From positions 1 to 33,787 of the forward strand of contig CANGQQ010000007.1 of NCBI GenBank assembly GCA_947456025.1: a stretch of 33,787 nt of DNA, read 5' to 3'. The notes beneath the pieces were generated by a model. That model made no database searches and had not been told where the DNA came from. It saw nothing but the letters and a program-made list of their open reading frames with translations. This stretch comes from Chitinophagaceae bacterium (GTDB lineage: Bacteria; Bacteroidota; Bacteroidia; Chitinophagales; Chitinophagaceae). Every line of letters begins with the position of its first letter. The stretch's first letter is position 1. Below, piece after piece: positions 2,892-33,489 of this stretch. The position numbers and the translations under genes were made by a program.

Positions 2892-2919
2892 TTTGTAAAC
2901 TAAAAAAATTAGTATATTG
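2892..2919 (+). promoter_or_regulatory. Promoter of the XRE/S24 repressor with embedded palindrome
   Basis: TTTG at 2892-2895 and TATATTG at 2913-2919, separated by 17 bases, resemble the Bacteroidota -33/-7 pair. An interrupted palindrome, ACTAA-N5-TTAGT (2899-2913), fills the spacer. It extends to 7 of 8 paired positions over 2896-2916. An 8-base direct repeat, AAAATTAG, occurs at 2905-2912 and 2927-2934, 22 bases (two helical turns) apart. This arrangement suits binding by a dimeric repressor, plausibly the gene's own product. The autoregulation is inferred. Confidence 0.45.
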
Positions 2920-2940
2920 CACCAATAAAATTAGCAAATT

Positions 2941-3690
2941 ATGGCAATGGCAAATCAAAACATGAAGTATTTGCGTAAGCAACATGGATTGACACAAGAT
3001 GAATTTGCCCGCAAATTGGGAATTAAACGGTCTTTATTGGGTGCCTATGAAGAAGAACGGGCAGAACCGCGTTATGATGTGCTTGAAACCGTAAGTGATC
3101 TTTTTAAAGTTAGCATTGATGATTTATTGCGCAAGGACTTAGGCGAAACCAAGGGCAGTTATTTAGCAAAACGGCGTCAATTGAAAATGGCAGCCGAAAG
3201 CAATGTTGTTTATTTTGTGCCTGTAAAAGCCGCAGCCGGTTACCTGAACGGTTATGCCGATCCGGAGTTCCTCGATGAACTCAATACATTCACGTTGCCC
3301 ATGTTAAGCAGCGGTACTTATCGGGCTTTTGAAATTATTGGGGATAGTATGCTGCCTACACCAAGTGGCAGTGTGATTGTTGGTGAAAAAGTAGATAGTC
3401 TTGAGGACGTAAAGAACAACCATGCTTACATCATACTCAGTAAAACAGAAGGAGTCGTTTACAAACGAATCGTCAAGAATAATCGTGCTAAAAATAAGCT
3501 TACGCTGGTAAGCGATAACCCGTCGTTTCAACCGTATCAAATTAATGCCGAAGATGTACTTGAGTTCTGGAGTGCTCAAATGGTTATCAGTAAAGTGAAT
3601 CAAACACAGCGTTGGGATATGAATAACCTGGCTTCCTTAGTAACCAACTTACAAGATCAGGTCAACCACTTAAAAAAGAAAATGAATTAG
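2941..3690 (+). CDS. XRE-family repressor with LexA/CI-like S24 autopeptidase domain
   Basis: DNA-binding regulator of 249 residues. Residues 6-64 form a Cro/CI helix-turn-helix (LTQDEFARKLGIKRSLLGAYE). Residues about 88-215 are an S24 peptidase domain. Its catalytic serine is Ser136 in GDSM and its lysine is Lys175 in VVYKRI, 39 residues later, close to the LexA spacing. An Ala99-Gly100 pair lies where LexA and CI cleave themselves, so autocleavage is chemically plausible. The C-terminal tail (about 225-249) looks like a short coiled coil. The ATG at 2941 is followed by a second in-frame ATG at 2947; either could be used. It lies 68 bases after proA but has its own promoter and terminator. 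Its inducer and targets cannot be told; it could be an SOS-type or a general stress repressor. No phage genes surround it. Confidence 0.88.
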   Translation: MAMANQNMKYLRKQHGLTQDEFARKLGIKRSLLGAYEEERAEPRYDVLETVSDLFKVSIDDLLRKDLGETKGSYLAKRRQLKMAAESNVVYFVPVKAAAGYLNGYADPEFLDELNTFTLPMLSSGTYRAFEIIGDSMLPTPSGSVIVGEKVDSLEDVKNNHAYIILSKTEGVVYKRIVKNNRAKNKLTLVSDNPSFQPYQINAEDVLEFWSAQMVISKVNQTQRWDMNNLASLVTNLQDQVNHLKKKMN

Positions 3691-5399: not shown

Positions 5400-5888
5400 T
5401 TACTCCTTTGACTCCTGTTCTGAAGTTTCAGTTCCTGTTTCCGGAATGGTGGTTTTGTTTGCTTGACACCATTTACTGATCGCTGCAACTTCTTCAGTTG
5501 TAAGAACAGCATCTTTATGAATTAATGTATAACTCTTAAGAGGCATTTCTCCCTCCTTGATGACTTCCACAATTTCTTCAAGATACTCTTGTTGTTCGCT
5601 TGCAGGGTAAGAACCGAATTCGTTAAAATTGAGATGTTCTTTTCCTTCATCAATATGGCGTTGCAGCCAGATTCCTACAGGCTGCAGTGATGCATACCAG
5701 GGATAAGTTGTCTGATTGCTATGACAGTCATAACATGCTCTTTTTAACGCACCGGAAACAGTAGTGTTCATTGGATATAATTGACCGGCATCCTGTGGAA
5801 AAGGACCTTCGGCTTGATTGCGTTCCGGACGATAAAACTGAAGGAGAACCAGTACGGCAATAGCGGCATACAATATTTTTTTAAGCAT
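5400..5888 (-). CDS. Haem-binding domain protein (c-type haem, membrane anchored)
   Basis: A 162-residue protein with an N-terminal hydrophobic segment (residues 4-17) that acts as a signal or anchor, placing the rest in the periplasm. It carries one c-type haem attachment motif, Cys52-x-x-Cys55-His56 (CYDCHSN), followed by YPWYASLQPVGIWLQRHIDEG, a run typical of the Haem_bd family (PF14376). Met115 in GEMPLKSY is the likely sixth ligand of the iron. The C-terminal 25 residues are polar and rich in Glu and Thr. The likely role is electron transfer or haem sensing, but the partner is unknown and no oxidase or reductase gene adjoins it. It is a single gene with flanking non-coding DNA on both sides. 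Confidence 0.87.
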   Translation of the reverse strand: MLKKILYAAIAVLVLLQFYRPERNQAEGPFPQDAGQLYPMNTTVSGALKRACYDCHSNQTTYPWYASLQPVGIWLQRHIDEGKEHLNFNEFGSYPASEQQEYLEEIVEVIKEGEMPLKSYTLIHKDAVLTTEEVAAISKWCQANKTTIPETGTETSEQESKE

Positions 5889-26277: not shown

Positions 26278-29200
26278 ATGAAAAGCCTTCTGACAACCAA
26301 GTTGCATCATGCATCTGGAAGAAAGGAATCAGGTACAATTGTTACCGAGCAAATGTCCCGTCTTTATAATCCAATCGATATCAAAAAGAACCATTTCGTA
26401 TTTCATTTTTTTATTGCCGTTTGTTTCTTGTTGTTTTCAGTGACGTCAAACGGTCAGGGAACTGCACAAGTCACGGCATCCGGCCCTTTAACCTTTTGTC
26501 AGGGGAATACGCTTGTTTTAACGGCAACAAATATCAATCCGTCTGCCACATTGCAATGGACCAAAAACGGTTCTCCTATTTCAGGATCTGTATCCGATAC
26601 GTTGAAGGTGACCCAATCCGGAACCTATAATGTTGAGGTGACCCAATTGGGTAGTACAACTACATTGAATGATGTTGTGGTAACCGTGAATCCTAAGCCC
26701 AATTTAAGATTGAATGGTACCGGCGCAACCACCATTAAGGGACAGCCTTATTTTAAAGTGTGTGCATCCTCAGCTCAATCCTTTACTTTCACCAATTCAT
26801 CATCTACCGCTTTTCTTAATACACGTTACGTCATACGCTGGGGTGATGGTACTCCTGATTATAATGCTACAAGTTTTACAACTCCAATTACTCATACTTA
26901 TCCGGTAGGTGTTCGACAAATGACGTACATCGTATATACTGCTAATTGTGTTGACAGTATGGTGTACAATGTGTTTGTAGGAAACATTCCCGCCGGTGGA
27001 TTGGTGGGAGTAGGAGGCTCTACAATTTGTTCCGGAGAAGAGCAAAAATTTGTAATTGCCGGTACGGAAAACAATCCCATCGGCACCATGTATATCCTGT
27101 ACTATAATGATGGCAGTAAACGGGATACTTTTTTTCATCCTGCACCCGATACAGTAAGTCATACGTTTGACTCCAGCAGTTGTGGATATACAAGTTCCAA
27201 TGGGATTCAAAGTTTTTCCAATTCCTATGGAGCGTTTTTAACGATTACCAATCCTTGTGGTGTTGCCGGCGGATCGATACTGCCAATTTATGTTTCAGAT
27301 AAGCCCAAGGTTGAATTCATCTTCAATCCCGGTGATACCGTTTGTGTAAACACTCCCGTGAATATTACCAACACAAGACCTTTTAGCCGGAATGTAGAAA
27401 ACGGGACCTGTACGCCCATTAAATATATATGGAGGGTTCGATCACTTACACCAGGGGGGACCTGGGCAATTACCAGCGGAACATTAGGACAGGATTTCGG
27501 GTCCAATGATCCGAATATTTGGCTTACAGGCTCACAGATAGTAGGGGTGCGATTTACGAAAACAGGTACTTATTCTGTGAAACTTGTCATGATCAACAAT
27601 ACACTTTGTGGTGCAGATAGTCTTGAAAAAATTATTTGTGTGAACCCGGTTCCGGATGCAGCTTATACAATTGATCGGACCACCGGTTGTGCACCTTTGA
27701 CGGTATCGGCTTCGGGAACTACGAATACGCCTGTATGTGGCACCAATCGGTTTAACTGGACAATAGTATATACTCCCATTACCGGTTGTACGCCTAATAC
27801 AGCATCGTATGAATTTGTAAATGGAACATCTTTATCATCATCGGCACCTCAACTTGAATTTCGGAATCCGGGGACCTATAAATTAATCTTGCAAACATTT
27901 GCTCCCGGAAATTTCTGTTCGTCTGCTTTGATAGAAAAAGAAATTATCGTCAAGGGGAAACCCGTTGTTCAACTTCAAGCACCTTCTGATATTTGTAAAA
28001 ACGCTACCATAAACCCTACTGCTCAGGTTTCTTGTTACACAGATGCGGCTACCTACAATTGGAATTTTGAATCCGGAAGTCCGGCATCCAGTGTATCTGC
28101 AATACCCGGATCAGTTTCTTATTCTGTAGCCGGTACGTATTCCATTAACCTGGATGTGACCAATGAATGTGGTACTACCGCTGTTGTTCAGCCGATAACA
28201 GTAAAGCCTGTTCCTGATGTCAATCGTCCTTCAAATATTACAGTATGTTCAGGAGCAAGTGTTGGGCCTATCCAATTCACTGGTAGTTTGGCTAATACGG
28301 TTTTCAACTGGACCAACAGTCAACCATCAATCGGTTTAGCTGCAACGGGTACAGGTACAATTAATACATTTAATGCAGTAAATAATGGCAGTGTTCCTGT
28401 TACCGCAACTATTACGGTCACACCTGCATTAAACGGTTGCGGAGCCGGTGCCAGCCAAACATTTACGATTACGGTCAATCCGCTCCCTTCTGCACCCGGT
28501 GTTTCCAATTTGCAACTTTGCAGGGAAGCGCCTTCAAACGCTTTGACGGCTACAGCATCCAATGGTCATACTCTTATTTGGTATGAAACAGCCAGCGGAT
28601 CTGCAACTTATCCTCAAGCTCCGGTGCCTTCAACGAACACTGTTGGGACAACAACTTATTATGTAAGTCAGAAATCAGATGCAACGTCTTGTGAAAGTAT
28701 TCGTTCTTCAATTGTTGTAACCATTTTGCCTAAAGCCGATCTGTCAGATTCTGTAATCACGATTTGCAGTGGTGAGGTTTTTAGTTTTGTTCCTGTAGGA
28801 GCACCCTCCGGTACAAAATACAATTGGAGTGCGCCTCAGGTATCTGGCGGATTAACAGGAGGGAGCGCCGGGTCATTAAAATCACTGGTTGATGGCAATT
28901 TAACCAATACCACTTCCAGTGTTCAAACTGCAACATATACCGTTACTCCGGTTACAGGAAGTTGTTCCGGTGCAACGTTTCAATTGAAAGTTCTTGTTCA
29001 ACCGAAGCCTGTCATAACTGCAAAATCCAGAGCAATTTGTAGTGGAGAGACTTTTACAGTTGCTCCGGTTGATGGACAATCTTCGGATTTAGTACCGGTT
29101 GTTACAACGTACACTTGGAGTAATCCGGTTGTGACTCCTTCAGGAGCAGTTACCGGTGTTTTGGCACAGCCTAATCCTCAAGCAGAGATTTCACAAATGC

Positions 29201-32200
29201 TTTTGAATATTACCAATGCACCTGCAACAGTAACTTATACGGTAACACCGCGTTCATTGATCAATGGAACAGTATGTACAGGATTGCCTTTTACAGTTTC
29301 AGTTACGGTGAATCCCAAGCCGTTAATTCCTTCCCAAACAGTGACGATTTGCAGCAGAAGTTCTTTCAATGTTACACCAACAAATAATTTGCCAAATACA
29401 AATGTTCCCTCCGGTACACGTTATACCTGGACAGAACCGGTGGTGACTCCTGCAGGTGCTGTAACCGGTAGTTCGGAACAGTTAAATCCGCAAACTTCCA
29501 TCAGTCAGGCATTGACGAATGCAACAGCTTCTACAGCAATTGTTACGTACACTGTTACGCCAATCAGTGCAGATGGTTCCGGTTGTGTTGGTGATCCTTT
29601 TTTAATTAATGTATTTGTCAATCCGCAACCCGGTATTGTTGATCAGGAAACAACAATTTGTAGTGGAGAGATTTTTAGTGTGGTTCCTGCAGGAACACCT
29701 GTGAATACGACGTACACATGGGGGATGCCCGTGAGTGATCCGGTGGGTGCAATTACTGGGGGGACTGCCCAATCCATTCCTCAAATTGCCATCAGTCAGC
29801 GTTTAACCAATACCACCAATAAACCGGCGACTATGATTTACACAATTCTGCCTGCTTTAGGTACGTCTTGTGCCAATGCCGGCTTTCTGGTAAAGGTGAC
29901 CGTGAATCCCAAACCGGTCATCCCGGATCAGTCGGTTACGGTGTGTAATAATGAAAGTGTCAATGTAGTTCCATCTGCTCAGCAAACCGGAACAATCATT
30001 CCCGCAAATACAACGTATAGTTGGGGAACTCCTGTTATTTCTCCATCAGGTGCAGTCACCGGTTTTTCAGCCGAAGCAAATCCGCAGCCTGCATTGATTC
30101 AAACTCTAACCAACCTTACAAATGCTCCTGCCATTGTCACTTACACTGTTACACCTTATTCCGGTGAAAATGGAAATTGCGTTGGTACTCCTTTTAAAGT
30201 AGCTGTTACCGTCAATCCGGATGCAAAGGCAATTTTGAATTTCAATACCAATTATGGTTGTCAACCTTATGCATTACAAATGGTAAACGGATCACCCGCA
30301 TCCGCCAGCAGTGCGTTCAATTGGTATGTCAATGATAATTTTATTGGAACAGGATCTCCATTTCCCGGTTATACAATTGCTGCCACTAATGACAGTGTGA
30401 CTGTTAAAATGGTCGCTCTGAGTAAGTTTGGATGTAAACAGGATAGTGTTGTTCAAAAGTTTTATACACGTCCGCAACCTCAGGCAATATTTACAAAGAA
30501 TCGTGATACCATTTGTGGTCCGGCAAGCATCACGATCACCAATACTTCACCCTTTTATACGGGAATGAATTATCGTTGGGATTTTGGTGACGGTCAAACC
30601 TCAACACAGTATCAGCCGGGTGCTGTTGTATTTCAGCCGGCCGTTTCTTTTGGCGACACATCGTATACTATCAAGTTGTCTGTTTTCAATGCATGCGACA
30701 CTGTTGAGTATACACAAAAAATTGTTGTACGTTCCAAACCCAATGCGGCGTTTACTTCCAATCGTTCATTTGGTTGTTCTCCTCTGAAAGTTGTATTTAC
30801 GAACACGTCATCCGGATTGGGGAATACCTATGTATGGGATTTTGGAGACCAGGTTCAAGTGCCGGCAACTGCAAAAGATACGATCAGTCATATTTACAGC
30901 ACGGGTTCAATTGGAACATTTAATGTTCGACTGATTGCAAACAATCATTGTGGTTATGATACTGCCGTTTTTCCATTGATAGTTCGTCCGAATCAAATTC
31001 GTTTGGATTTTGATATAGACGGAAATCAGAAAAGAGGTTGTGCATCTCATACAATTCGTATCATCAATAAATCAACCGGTGCAACTTCCTATAAATGGGA
31101 TATGGGTGATGGAACGATTCTGTTTACGACGCCGGCCAATGATACATTGAACTATACCTATACGACTCCGGGTGTGTATCCTGTTTATTTATTTGCAAGT
31201 AATGGTTGTTCAGACACTTCTGCCTTTATCTCCGATATTGAAGTGTTCGGTAAACCCTCTGCCGCTTTTACAGCCGATAAATACAACGCATGTATTGGCG
31301 ATAGCATACAGTTTTCGAATCAATCGGTAAATGCTTCTTCCTATTTGTGGAATTTCGGCAATAATGCGACATCGGCAACAATAAGTCCTAAATATGCATA
31401 CGTCAGTCCCGGCACCTATCAGGTTGCTTTGGTAGCCTATAAAAATTACGGGCAGGGTGTTGTATGTGTTGATACTATAAAACGTCCTGTGGTAATCAAT
31501 GATACGTTGCCACTTGCATTCGGTGTAAGTGCTGCAACAGGCAACTGTACGCCGTTTAAAGTAACTTTCAAAAACACGTTCAAGCCCTATGCATTTTTGC
31601 AGTGGGATTTTGGCGACGGAGTTCAATCTTCGGGAGATTCAGTTGTTCATACATATACCAGGAATGGATCATATACCGTTCGTTTGACCATACGTTCTGC
31701 AGGTGGTTGTGTGTACACGGGTACAAGGATCATTACAGTTGCTGCTCCTGAGGGAACAGTCAACATTCCGTCGGGTTTTCAGTGTCTTGAAAATAAAATC
31801 CGGTTTGAAGCAACAGCATTTAATACCGATTCCATTGTGTGGAATTTTGGAGATGGAATTGTATTGAAAACAACCGATCGTGTCGTATATCATCAATATA
31901 CAGCTCCCGGTTTGTATGTACCTAAAATCAGTTTTCTTTCTGCATCAGGTTGCCTGTTCCCGGTTCCGGATAAGGATACCATTCGTATTGAAGCAGTGCT
32001 TGCTGGATTCCGTTCGGTGCAGCAAAATTATTGTGGATATACCGATGTGCTTTTTTATGATACATCGAAATTGACATATGGAGGAGCGCTTGTCAAATGG
32101 AACTTTGGAGATGGGCAATCCGGTGTAGGGGCTTCCATTACACATCGTTATGCGTCTGCCGGCGTGTATCCGATACAGATGATTGTTACCGGAATTGCCG

Positions 32201-33489
32201 GTTGTGCAGATACAATTCAGCGATTACTTCCTGTAACGGTTCATTCCATTCCGGATGCTGCCATTGAAGGAAGTGTAAATGCATGTACGGTTTTGCCTTC
32301 TGTTTACAATGCAAATGTAAACGCCACAGACAGCATTTCGTTTTATCGCTGGATCCTTTCCAACGGCGTTAGTGCAAATACTTCCTCTTTTGTTTATCCG
32401 TTCAATACTCCGGGAACTTACGAATTAACGTTGATCGCAGGTACAAAATTTGGCTGTTACGATACGGTAAAAAATACTATTTACGTACAACAGTCTCCTT
32501 CAGTTTCAGTTTCACAAGATGCAACACTTTGTAAAGGAAAGTCCATTGTGCTCAATGCCAATGGTGCTGTATCTTATACCTGGTATCCTGTTGAGGGTCT
32601 GAGTTGTACCACCTGTTCATCGGTGTTGGCAAGTCCGGCAACCAGTACCCCATACGTAGTGAAAGGGATTGGTGCCAACGGATGTCCCGGTTATGATACG
32701 GTCCGCCTGACGGTTATTCAACCTTTGAAATTGGAAGTGAGTAAAAGTGATAGTATCTGTATCGGTTCATCGATTCAACTTTCAGCATCCGGTGCCACAT
32801 CTTATCGGTGGTCGCCTGCAACCGGACTTTCAGGGACAATGATTAGTAATCCGATTGCTACACCGGTCGTAACCACAAAATATCGTGTTGTAGGCTTTGA
32901 TGCAAACAGCTGTTTTACAGATACGGCATACATTACTGTTGGTGTAGGAAAGAAACCGACATTGTCACTGGGGCCTGATCAGGTTCTTGCAACAGGTACT
33001 CCTTTTGCATTGAATCCGGTTTACACGGAAGGACCCATGCGAACCTGGAAGTGGACTCCCGAGACTGATTTAAGTTGTGCCGATTGCTCCAATCCCATTG
33101 CAACCATTAAAAACGATATCAGTTATAAGGTGCAAGCTACAACAGTCTTTGGGTGTACCGTTTCTGATACTATTAATATCAAGGTGTTTTGCACTAATGC
33201 CCAGGTATTTATTGCCAATGCCTTTACACCGGACGGAGATGGCATCAATGATGTATTGATGGTTCAATCCAGAGGTATTAAAGCGGTTAAATATTTCCGC
33301 ATCTTTAATCGTTGGGGCGAGTTGATTTTTGAAAAATACAATGTGCAGCCCAACGATCCGTCCTATGGTTGGGATGGAAAAGTACGCGGTATTGCAAGTG
33401 CTCCTGCTGTATTTGTCTACACAGCTGAAGTTGTTTGTGAAAATGGATCATCTTACACGTATAAAGGGAATGTATCGTTGATACGGTAA
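26278..33489 (+). CDS. Giant T9SS type-B surface protein with PKD, Ig-like and CHU_C domains
   Basis: A 2403-residue exported surface protein, probably an adhesin like SprB, although no gliding function is shown. The signal sequence core is HFFIAVCFLLFSVTSNGQ (near residues 44-61). From the ATG at 26278 the n-region is 43 residues; an in-frame ATG at 26353 would give a more usual 18. Domains in order: an Ig-like domain (about 65-145), an early PKD copy with RWGDGT (near 187), further Ig/PKD-like domains to about 640, six PKD-like repeats and one Ig-like domain (about 640-1311), a PKD array with seven W-[DN]-[FM]-G-[DN] turns (about 1312-2070), Ig-like domains (about 2070-2305), and the C-terminal gliding-motility sorting domain with ANAFTPDGDGIND, FRIFNRWGE and YKGNVSLIR. 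It is followed after 51 bases by a PorP/SprF gene, its probable secretion partner. Confidence 0.93.
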   Translation: MKSLLTTKLHHASGRKESGTIVTEQMSRLYNPIDIKKNHFVFHFFIAVCFLLFSVTSNGQGTAQVTASGPLTFCQGNTLVLTATNINPSATLQWTKNGSPISGSVSDTLKVTQSGTYNVEVTQLGSTTTLNDVVVTVNPKPNLRLNGTGATTIKGQPYFKVCASSAQSFTFTNSSSTAFLNTRYVIRWGDGTPDYNATSFTTPITHTYPVGVRQMTYIVYTANCVDSMVYNVFVGNIPAGGLVGVGGSTICSGEEQKFVIAGTENNPIGTMYILYYNDGSKRDTFFHPAPDTVSHTFDSSSCGYTSSNGIQSFSNSYGAFLTITNPCGVAGGSILPIYVSDKPKVEFIFNPGDTVCVNTPVNITNTRPFSRNVENGTCTPIKYIWRVRSLTPGGTWAITSGTLGQDFGSNDPNIWLTGSQIVGVRFTKTGTYSVKLVMINNTLCGADSLEKIICVNPVPDAAYTIDRTTGCAPLTVSASGTTNTPVCGTNRFNWTIVYTPITGCTPNTASYEFVNGTSLSSSAPQLEFRNPGTYKLILQTFAPGNFCSSALIEKEIIVKGKPVVQLQAPSDICKNATINPTAQVSCYTDAATYNWNFESGSPASSVSAIPGSVSYSVAGTYSINLDVTNECGTTAVVQPITVKPVPDVNRPSNITVCSGASVGPIQFTGSLANTVFNWTNSQPSIGLAATGTGTINTFNAVNNGSVPVTATITVTPALNGCGAGASQTFTITVNPLPSAPGVSNLQLCREAPSNALTATASNGHTLIWYETASGSATYPQAPVPSTNTVGTTTYYVSQKSDATSCESIRSSIVVTILPKADLSDSVITICSGEVFSFVPVGAPSGTKYNWSAPQVSGGLTGGSAGSLKSLVDGNLTNTTSSVQTATYTVTPVTGSCSGATFQLKVLVQPKPVITAKSRAICSGETFTVAPVDGQSSDLVPVVTTYTWSNPVVTPSGAVTGVLAQPNPQAEISQMLLNITNAPATVTYTVTPRSLINGTVCTGLPFTVSVTVNPKPLIPSQTVTICSRSSFNVTPTNNLPNTNVPSGTRYTWTEPVVTPAGAVTGSSEQLNPQTSISQALTNATASTAIVTYTVTPISADGSGCVGDPFLINVFVNPQPGIVDQETTICSGEIFSVVPAGTPVNTTYTWGMPVSDPVGAITGGTAQSIPQIAISQRLTNTTNKPATMIYTILPALGTSCANAGFLVKVTVNPKPVIPDQSVTVCNNESVNVVPSAQQTGTIIPANTTYSWGTPVISPSGAVTGFSAEANPQPALIQTLTNLTNAPAIVTYTVTPYSGENGNCVGTPFKVAVTVNPDAKAILNFNTNYGCQPYALQMVNGSPASASSAFNWYVNDNFIGTGSPFPGYTIAATNDSVTVKMVALSKFGCKQDSVVQKFYTRPQPQAIFTKNRDTICGPASITITNTSPFYTGMNYRWDFGDGQTSTQYQPGAVVFQPAVSFGDTSYTIKLSVFNACDTVEYTQKIVVRSKPNAAFTSNRSFGCSPLKVVFTNTSSGLGNTYVWDFGDQVQVPATAKDTISHIYSTGSIGTFNVRLIANNHCGYDTAVFPLIVRPNQIRLDFDIDGNQKRGCASHTIRIINKSTGATSYKWDMGDGTILFTTPANDTLNYTYTTPGVYPVYLFASNGCSDTSAFISDIEVFGKPSAAFTADKYNACIGDSIQFSNQSVNASSYLWNFGNNATSATISPKYAYVSPGTYQVALVAYKNYGQGVVCVDTIKRPVVINDTLPLAFGVSAATGNCTPFKVTFKNTFKPYAFLQWDFGDGVQSSGDSVVHTYTRNGSYTVRLTIRSAGGCVYTGTRIITVAAPEGTVNIPSGFQCLENKIRFEATAFNTDSIVWNFGDGIVLKTTDRVVYHQYTAPGLYVPKISFLSASGCLFPVPDKDTIRIEAVLAGFRSVQQNYCGYTDVLFYDTSKLTYGGALVKWNFGDGQSGVGASITHRYASAGVYPIQMIVTGIAGCADTIQRLLPVTVHSIPDAAIEGSVNACTVLPSVYNANVNATDSISFYRWILSNGVSANTSSFVYPFNTPGTYELTLIAGTKFGCYDTVKNTIYVQQSPSVSVSQDATLCKGKSIVLNANGAVSYTWYPVEGLSCTTCSSVLASPATSTPYVVKGIGANGCPGYDTVRLTVIQPLKLEVSKSDSICIGSSIQLSASGATSYRWSPATGLSGTMISNPIATPVVTTKYRVVGFDANSCFTDTAYITVGVGKKPTLSLGPDQVLATGTPFALNPVYTEGPMRTWKWTPETDLSCADCSNPIATIKNDISYKVQATTVFGCTVSDTINIKVFCTNAQVFIANAFTPDGDGINDVLMVQSRGIKAVKYFRIFNRWGELIFEKYNVQPNDPSYGWDGKVRGIASAPAVFVYTAEVVCENGSSYTYKGNVSLIR
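28737..30210 (+). repeat. Tandem PKD-like repeats inside the giant protein (five copies)
   Basis: Five consecutive protein repeats of about 90-105 residues (near residues 820-1311). Each opens with a cysteine-containing block (ITICSGE, AICSGET, TICSRSS, TICSGEI, VCNNESV), continues with TYTW or YNW and P-V-x-P-x-GA-x-TG, and ends with TYTVTP … VNP[KQ]P. A sixth, more divergent copy precedes them near residues 644-740. The copies are clearly related in protein sequence but have diverged at the DNA level. Confidence 0.8.
30211..32490 (+). repeat. PKD domain array inside the giant protein
   Basis: About nine PKD-type domains of 75-95 residues. Seven carry the core turn WDFGD, WDMGD, WNFGD or WNFGN. 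Most copies hold two cysteines, one at the domain start (CGPAS, CSPLK, CIGDS, CTPFK) and one in the last strand (NACDT, NGCSDT, AGCADT), which could form one disulphide per domain. Confidence 0.8.

Follow-up and report, generated by a model that had tools for sequence, protein, structure and literature searches.

S24 repressors with CI-type N-terminal domains occur in Bacteroidetes and, according to the accessible part of PMC8565304, use two operators, one of which is CTAA-N5-TTAG. This operator is reported there at umuDC, recA, recN, dinB, ruvB, splB and other genes. Gel shifts with altered half-sites demonstrated binding, the repressor's own promoter included, and RT-qPCR demonstrated induction by mitomycin C; a protein tested there is WP_025606010.1 of P. 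actiniarum. Chitinophagaceae are named among the families with large regulons, amounting to about nine operons; ssb and radC are targets in some species, and family members carry a terminal helix without known function. In the same part of that report, LexA homologs are described as absent from Bacteroidetes complete genomes. A second related system involves mobile DNA. The accessible part of PMC13393415 places ISCR transposases under E. coli LexA and counts only few articles reporting host SOS control of insertion sequences (IS).

The window, the whole 33,787-nucleotide stretch of Chitinophagaceae DNA analysed here, contains a gene for a protein of 249 amino acids (2941-3690, + strand) that its frame, Pfam matches, homology and structural model assign to the non-canonical LexA type. 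Its HTH_3 (PF01381; residues 9-62, E 1.5e-13) and Peptidase_S24 domains both score above the Pfam cut-off, and neither PF01726 nor TIGR00498, the profiles of canonical LexA with its winged helix, is found among its profile matches. An AlphaFold2 model of middling confidence (36 sequences, pLDDT 76.4, pTM 0.48) displays five N-terminal helices, the S24 domain and a C-terminal helix. The CI-type helix-turn-helix domain spans residues 3-64 (2947-3132, + strand), with modelled helices at residues 3-14, 19-26, 30-37, 45-55 and 59-64. The C-terminal helix, past the S24 domain, covers residues 227-248 (3619-3684, + strand; mean pLDDT about 73-75). The top Foldseek matches to this model are the lambda-186 hybrid repressor, the lambda repressor and LexA. 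A full autopeptidase set had been anticipated for this XRE/S24 protein and is present on the + strand: the predicted cleavage site Ala99-Gly100 (3235-3240), the predicted nucleophile Ser136 within GDSM (3346-3348) and the predicted general base Lys175 within VYKRI (3463-3465). Elsewhere in the window, 26278-33489 holds a 2403-aa frame that appears by eye to encode a large secreted repeat protein, and the frame that follows, from 33540, resembles by eye a membrane protein of gliding or type IX secretion.

The repressor thus displays every tested feature of the non-canonical LexA family, namely the helix-turn-helix, the S24 domain, the cleavage set, the C-terminal helix and the operators described below. 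The family, its operator and its role have been in print since 2021, and the window protein is a new member. Compared with the relatives in the accessible part of PMC8565304, it is alike in domains, cleavage set, C-terminal helix, own-promoter operator and the targets recA and umuDC; its perfect-site regulon, known here from sequence, is however smaller and lacks dinB. With canonical LexA of the E. coli type it shares its predicted role and the S24 cleavage chemistry, whereas its DNA-binding domain is a CI-type HTH_3 rather than a winged helix and its operator is different. The lambda CI and P22 c2 repressors are similar in N-terminal fold, cleavage set and tandem operators; in contrast to them, the window repressor is chromosomal, lies away from phage genes and is predicted to control host repair genes.

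The promoter begins with TTTG (2892-2895, + strand), which we take to be the -33 element of a Bacteroidota-type promoter and which has the same spacing in the promoters of 91 repressor genes among the matches listed in the collection scan discussed below. The -7 element is TATATTG (2913-2919, + strand), one T shorter than the consensus TAnnTTTG. Operator O1, CTAA-AAAAA-TTAG (2900-2912), corresponds to the published CTAA-N5-TTAG motif and is conserved 5′ of the orthologs. Together with its flanking A and T it reads ACTAA-AAAAA-TTAGT (2899-2913), the palindrome that had been predicted between the -33 and -7 elements. Operator O2, CCAA-TAAAA-TTAG (2922-2934), has one mismatch to CTAA-N5-TTAG, is placed before the ATG of the repressor gene and is recognized from its sequence and its conservation in orthologs. 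The direct repeat of the original prediction stands insofar as two copies of AAAATTAG are present 22 bases apart (2905-2912 and 2927-2934); it does not stand as a separate element, the second copy being the right part of O2. With up to two mismatches allowed, the window has no excess of the ACTAA-N5-TTAGT 15-mer, which occurs 11 times against 15.6 expected. With O1 between the promoter elements and O2 before the start codon, bound repressor should exclude RNA polymerase. With a spacing of 22 bp, both operators face nearly the same side of the helix, an arrangement that would fit cooperative binding of dimers.

Searching the genomes of 59 relatives with the repressor sequence gives a match in 50, and the repressor is the sole match in its own genome. 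Each of the 13 other genomes of the genus has one full-length ortholog of 78-86% identity. The gene is not universal in the family, which counts against its reading as the SOS repressor: among 22 same-family genomes outside the genus, a match of at least 53% is found in 17, one of 36-40% in four and none in one. The 30 best orthologs, the window protein included, comprise 14 from within the genus and 16 from the same family outside it. The original prediction had hung on conservation of the palindrome in orthologous promoters, and a perfect CTAA-N5-TTAG lies within 150 bp upstream of all 30. Across 200 mononucleotide shuffles of these upstream sequences, the number of orthologs with a perfect site averaged 0.17 and never exceeded 2. 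A second site, 20-24 bp from the first and with at most one mismatch, occurs in 23/30. Of the 16 orthologs from outside the genus, 14 have it in perfect form; of the 14 from within, nine have it with one mismatch and in five it is not found at that tolerance. Such conservation of predicted operators over ortholog promoters strongly supports the autoregulation that had been proposed. Ala99, Gly100, Ser136 and Lys175 are likewise invariant in 30/30 orthologs and in 78/78 members of a second sequence set, which is made up of the window repressor and 77 sequences from operator-pattern loci and is thus not independent of the pattern.

The proposal that the regulon could be found by searching the genome for the palindrome proved productive, as the search led to recA and umuDC. 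The genome (2.37 Mb) contains 13 perfect CTAA-N5-TTAG palindromes; a backwards control pattern occurs 113 times. Five of the 13 fall in three promoters (one at the repressor, two at recA, two at umuDC), giving a perfect-site regulon that is small beside the roughly nine operons of PMC8565304 and to that extent speaks against the SOS reading. Under a binomial model that assumes uniform placement and ignores base composition, at least five sites in 600 bp have a probability of ~1e-15. The sites at recA (contig C72) and at a UmuD-UmuC pair (C59; UmuD named by NCBIfam PRK10276.1, above cut-off) are tandem operator pairs located 5′ of the genes. In all 14 genomes of the genus, the own one among them, one or more perfect sites lie a short way upstream of recA, although in one locus (L055) the site comes after an earlier in-frame Met; a tandem pair is present in 12/14. 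In 12/14 same-genus genomes, the outer recA operator is also preceded, at a distance of ~16 bp, by a third operator with one mismatch (CTAA-N5-TTGG), ~76-78 bases before the start (L050 and other loci among L049-L062; in L055 counted from the earlier Met).

The Y-family polymerases yielded 32 matches, of which 30 loci were read (two weak matches had no locus), with types assigned by eye. A perfect site is present in 14/16 umuDC-type loci; the two that lack one are L078 and L084, and L084 begins at a contig end. The dinB-type loci have a perfect site in 0/14. They serve as an internal negative control and also count against the SOS reading, since dinB is a target in other species according to the accessible part of PMC8565304. 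The ssb and radC genes of the window, named by eye, have no upstream site with up to two mismatches allowed. The other eight perfect palindromes of the genome are left out of the target count. Several of them fall within frames, of which two read by eye as ruvB and dnaX. Two more of the eight are lone intergenic operators, one ~90 bases 5′ of a gene for an FkbM-type methyltransferase (L044; contig C112 of G000, 5825-5837) and one ~185 bases 5′ of a gene for a secreted protein with a Por sorting tail (L034; contig C3, 5981-5993). Both could be extra targets or chance occurrences.

Taken together, the observation is confirmed as real and beyond chance, and the gene at 2941-3690 very probably encodes the repressor of the SOS response in this Chitinophagaceae bacterium, belonging to the CTAA-N5-TTAG group of the Bacteroidetes non-canonical LexA family. 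The family operator, the conserved residues and the sites at recA and umuDC make the role of SOS master repressor the most likely one. Canonical LexA gives nothing over the cut-off in the same genome, where one PF01726 match falls below it (21.3 of 23.7 bits). Canonical LexA-like proteins do occur in two genomes of the genus, G001 and G012 (TIGR00498 above cut-off), which is a point against the SOS reading. The loci in question are L048 (1465-2118 and 2409-3170, both + strand) and L047 (1060-1686, - strand). In L048 a SMODS (CBASS-type) nucleotidyltransferase comes after the LexA-like protein, and in L047 a frame that resembles TIR/SEFIR by eye lies near it.

The phage-repressor-type N-terminal domain and PHROG matches could also be expected of a relict or domesticated prophage repressor of the CI type, controlling only itself or a lost prophage, and a viral contig (L295, IMGVR_UViG_3300024996_000135) encodes a protein 70% identical to the window repressor. 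Such a reading is nonetheless extremely unlikely, given the one-to-one ortholog in every same-genus genome, the same operator at recA and umuDC, and the gene's surroundings. Its location outside any prophage had been part of the original prediction, and Pfam finds no phage-like gene among the eight neighbouring frames, six of which have a cellular-type match and two none. A looser form of the operator pattern, lacking TTTG, matches 74 stretches in a viral-contig collection. Only one of these encodes a repressor, and most downstream frames are very short, so that use of the operator by phages is not supported. The repressor of L295, which is preceded by two operators, may be host DNA or a captured repressor.

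Some of the perfect palindromes in the genome lie inside genes or 5′ of unrelated genes, as would be the case if the protein were a local regulator answering to a signal other than DNA damage and its palindromes elsewhere were there by chance. This is very improbable beside the tandem recA sites conserved across the genus and the induction of relatives by mitomycin C in the accessible part of PMC8565304. A protein that has lost cleavage and acts as a constitutive repressor is a negligible prospect in light of the four residues invariant in both sequence sets. The predicted self-cleavage residues being kept, the SOS repressor is expected to be cleavable, and from these residues, its targets and the accessible part of PMC8565304 we infer that cleavage is driven by RecA. 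That the repressor would be signal-inducible, as originally predicted, is borne out to the extent that operators at recA and umuDC make DNA damage very probably the signal.

In the proposed mechanism, a dimer on O1 would occupy the stretch that separates the -33 from the -7 element, and a second dimer on O2, about two helical turns further, would cover the DNA before the start codon, presumably in a cooperative manner. Occupancy of both would block the repressor's own promoter, while the same operators would block recA and umuDC. Upon DNA damage, RecA filaments would form on single-stranded DNA and lead the Ser136/Lys175 pair to cut the repressor between Ala99 and Gly100. The cut dimers would leave the DNA, so that repair genes and repressor gene alike are transcribed until repair is complete.

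The tandem arrangement of operators also occurs at IS ends. In a scan of the 14 genomes of the genus for tandem operators, 11 have one pair each, all at recA; the own genome has two (recA and umuDC), G009 none and G008 eleven. The 11 copies of G008 sit at contig ends (L108-L115 among them). Eight fetched copies have a common sequence up to a sharp border, followed by differing sequence. These copies read TTTG-N6-O1-C-TATTTTTG-C-O2-TT-ATG, one of them with one O2 base changed. Scanning a collection of species genomes for TTTG-N6-O1-N8..11-O2-N1..6-ATG gives at least 117 stretches, and the 117 matches listed consist of 91 repressor genes, 25 IS ends and one other. Among these listed matches, BLASTP identifies the downstream frame as a repressor gene in 88 and as an IS1595-type transposase in 13. 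The remainder were assigned by eye: three repressor genes truncated where the contig or locus ends (L123, L164, L185), one further IS1595-type transposase start (L221, for a total of 14) and 11 starts of a second IS type, termed type B (5 in JANYFI, 6 in JAIEQM). The last listed match, from Sporolactobacillus, precedes a 3-aa frame and is probably due to chance; base composition predicts at most about 2 chance matches over the collection.

One locus, L154 (JANYEA010000062.1, about 1-1000), contains a full element of about 1 kb. It is bounded by TAGGATTAGGTATT and, about 980 bases on, AATACCTAATCCTA, forming a 14-bp inverted repeat. Its transposase (300 aa) scores above cut-off for PF12762 and PF12760 and reaches 136 bits for NCBIfam IS1595 NF033547 (cut-off 75), and the operators are inside the element, between its end and the ATG. 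Multicopy IS ends with tandem operators in the repressor-promoter layout, immediately ahead of the transposase start, are found at L154, at L158, L163, L187, L196 and L217 (JANYFI), at L108-L115 (G008), at L194, at L221 and at L286. The 11 type-B ends retain at most 26 aa of frame before their contigs end. We infer that they are IS1595 as well from L286, a similar end with one operator mismatch and a full transposase over the PF12762 cut-off. The two operator-bearing transposase types are about 24-27% identical, and both have operator-less relatives (L279, L282 and L284; L281).

Six genomes contain operator-bearing IS, and four of them encode a repressor of 66-82% identity (split over two contigs in G421). 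A close repressor is missing in the other two, with none found in G425 and a 35% match containing a stop in G426. G426 and JANYEA have one and the same IS start, whose presence in G426 may reflect a binning error between sister samples. The repressor promoters of G421, G422 and JAGWRO (L176; the genome of L194) have two perfect operators, and that of G008 one perfect site. A survey of IS1595 within the family yielded 46 matches in 30/117 genomes, with 45 loci read and 44 scored. The tandem pair occurs in 0/44 of these loci, pointing to a rare trait, and a single perfect site in two; when frames were chosen more crudely and a stretch of 200 bases was taken, four of 45 loci had a single site. 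At L239 (G147), a lone perfect operator precedes the first Met of an IS1595 transposase frame by 27 bases and may represent the same kind of control with one operator. A transposase tree of 50 rows requires three changes for the three rows with operators, as many as shuffled labels do or more, and fits several gains as well as one gain with losses.

The operator-bearing IS are probably under host SOS control. It is fairly likely that IS1595-family elements of Chitinophagaceae-type genomes, with two types of transposase, have inside their ends the promoter layout of the SOS repressor, such that transposition would be held by the non-canonical LexA and released by damage, and, jointly with this reading, that the IS switch was copied from, or converged on, that of the SOS master repressor. 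ISCR elements, in the accessible part of PMC13393415, similarly have a host SOS operator in the transposase promoter; they differ in IS family and repressor family, and the IS1595-type ends, seen at the level of sequence, have tandem operators. A search of open-access main texts found, going by titles and abstract openings, no report of IS1595 or Bacteroidetes IS under the SOS repressor, and the string 'transpos' is absent from the main text of PMC8565304 in its accessible part.

With a genome of 2.4 Mb, this bacterium neatly exemplifies the claim, made in 2021, of a phage-like repressor replacing LexA in Bacteroidetes. The repressor itself belongs to a described family, and the IS result is the part that deserves a second look. 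If true, the control proposed for these IS would link DNA damage to IS mobility in a phylum long thought to be SOS-less.
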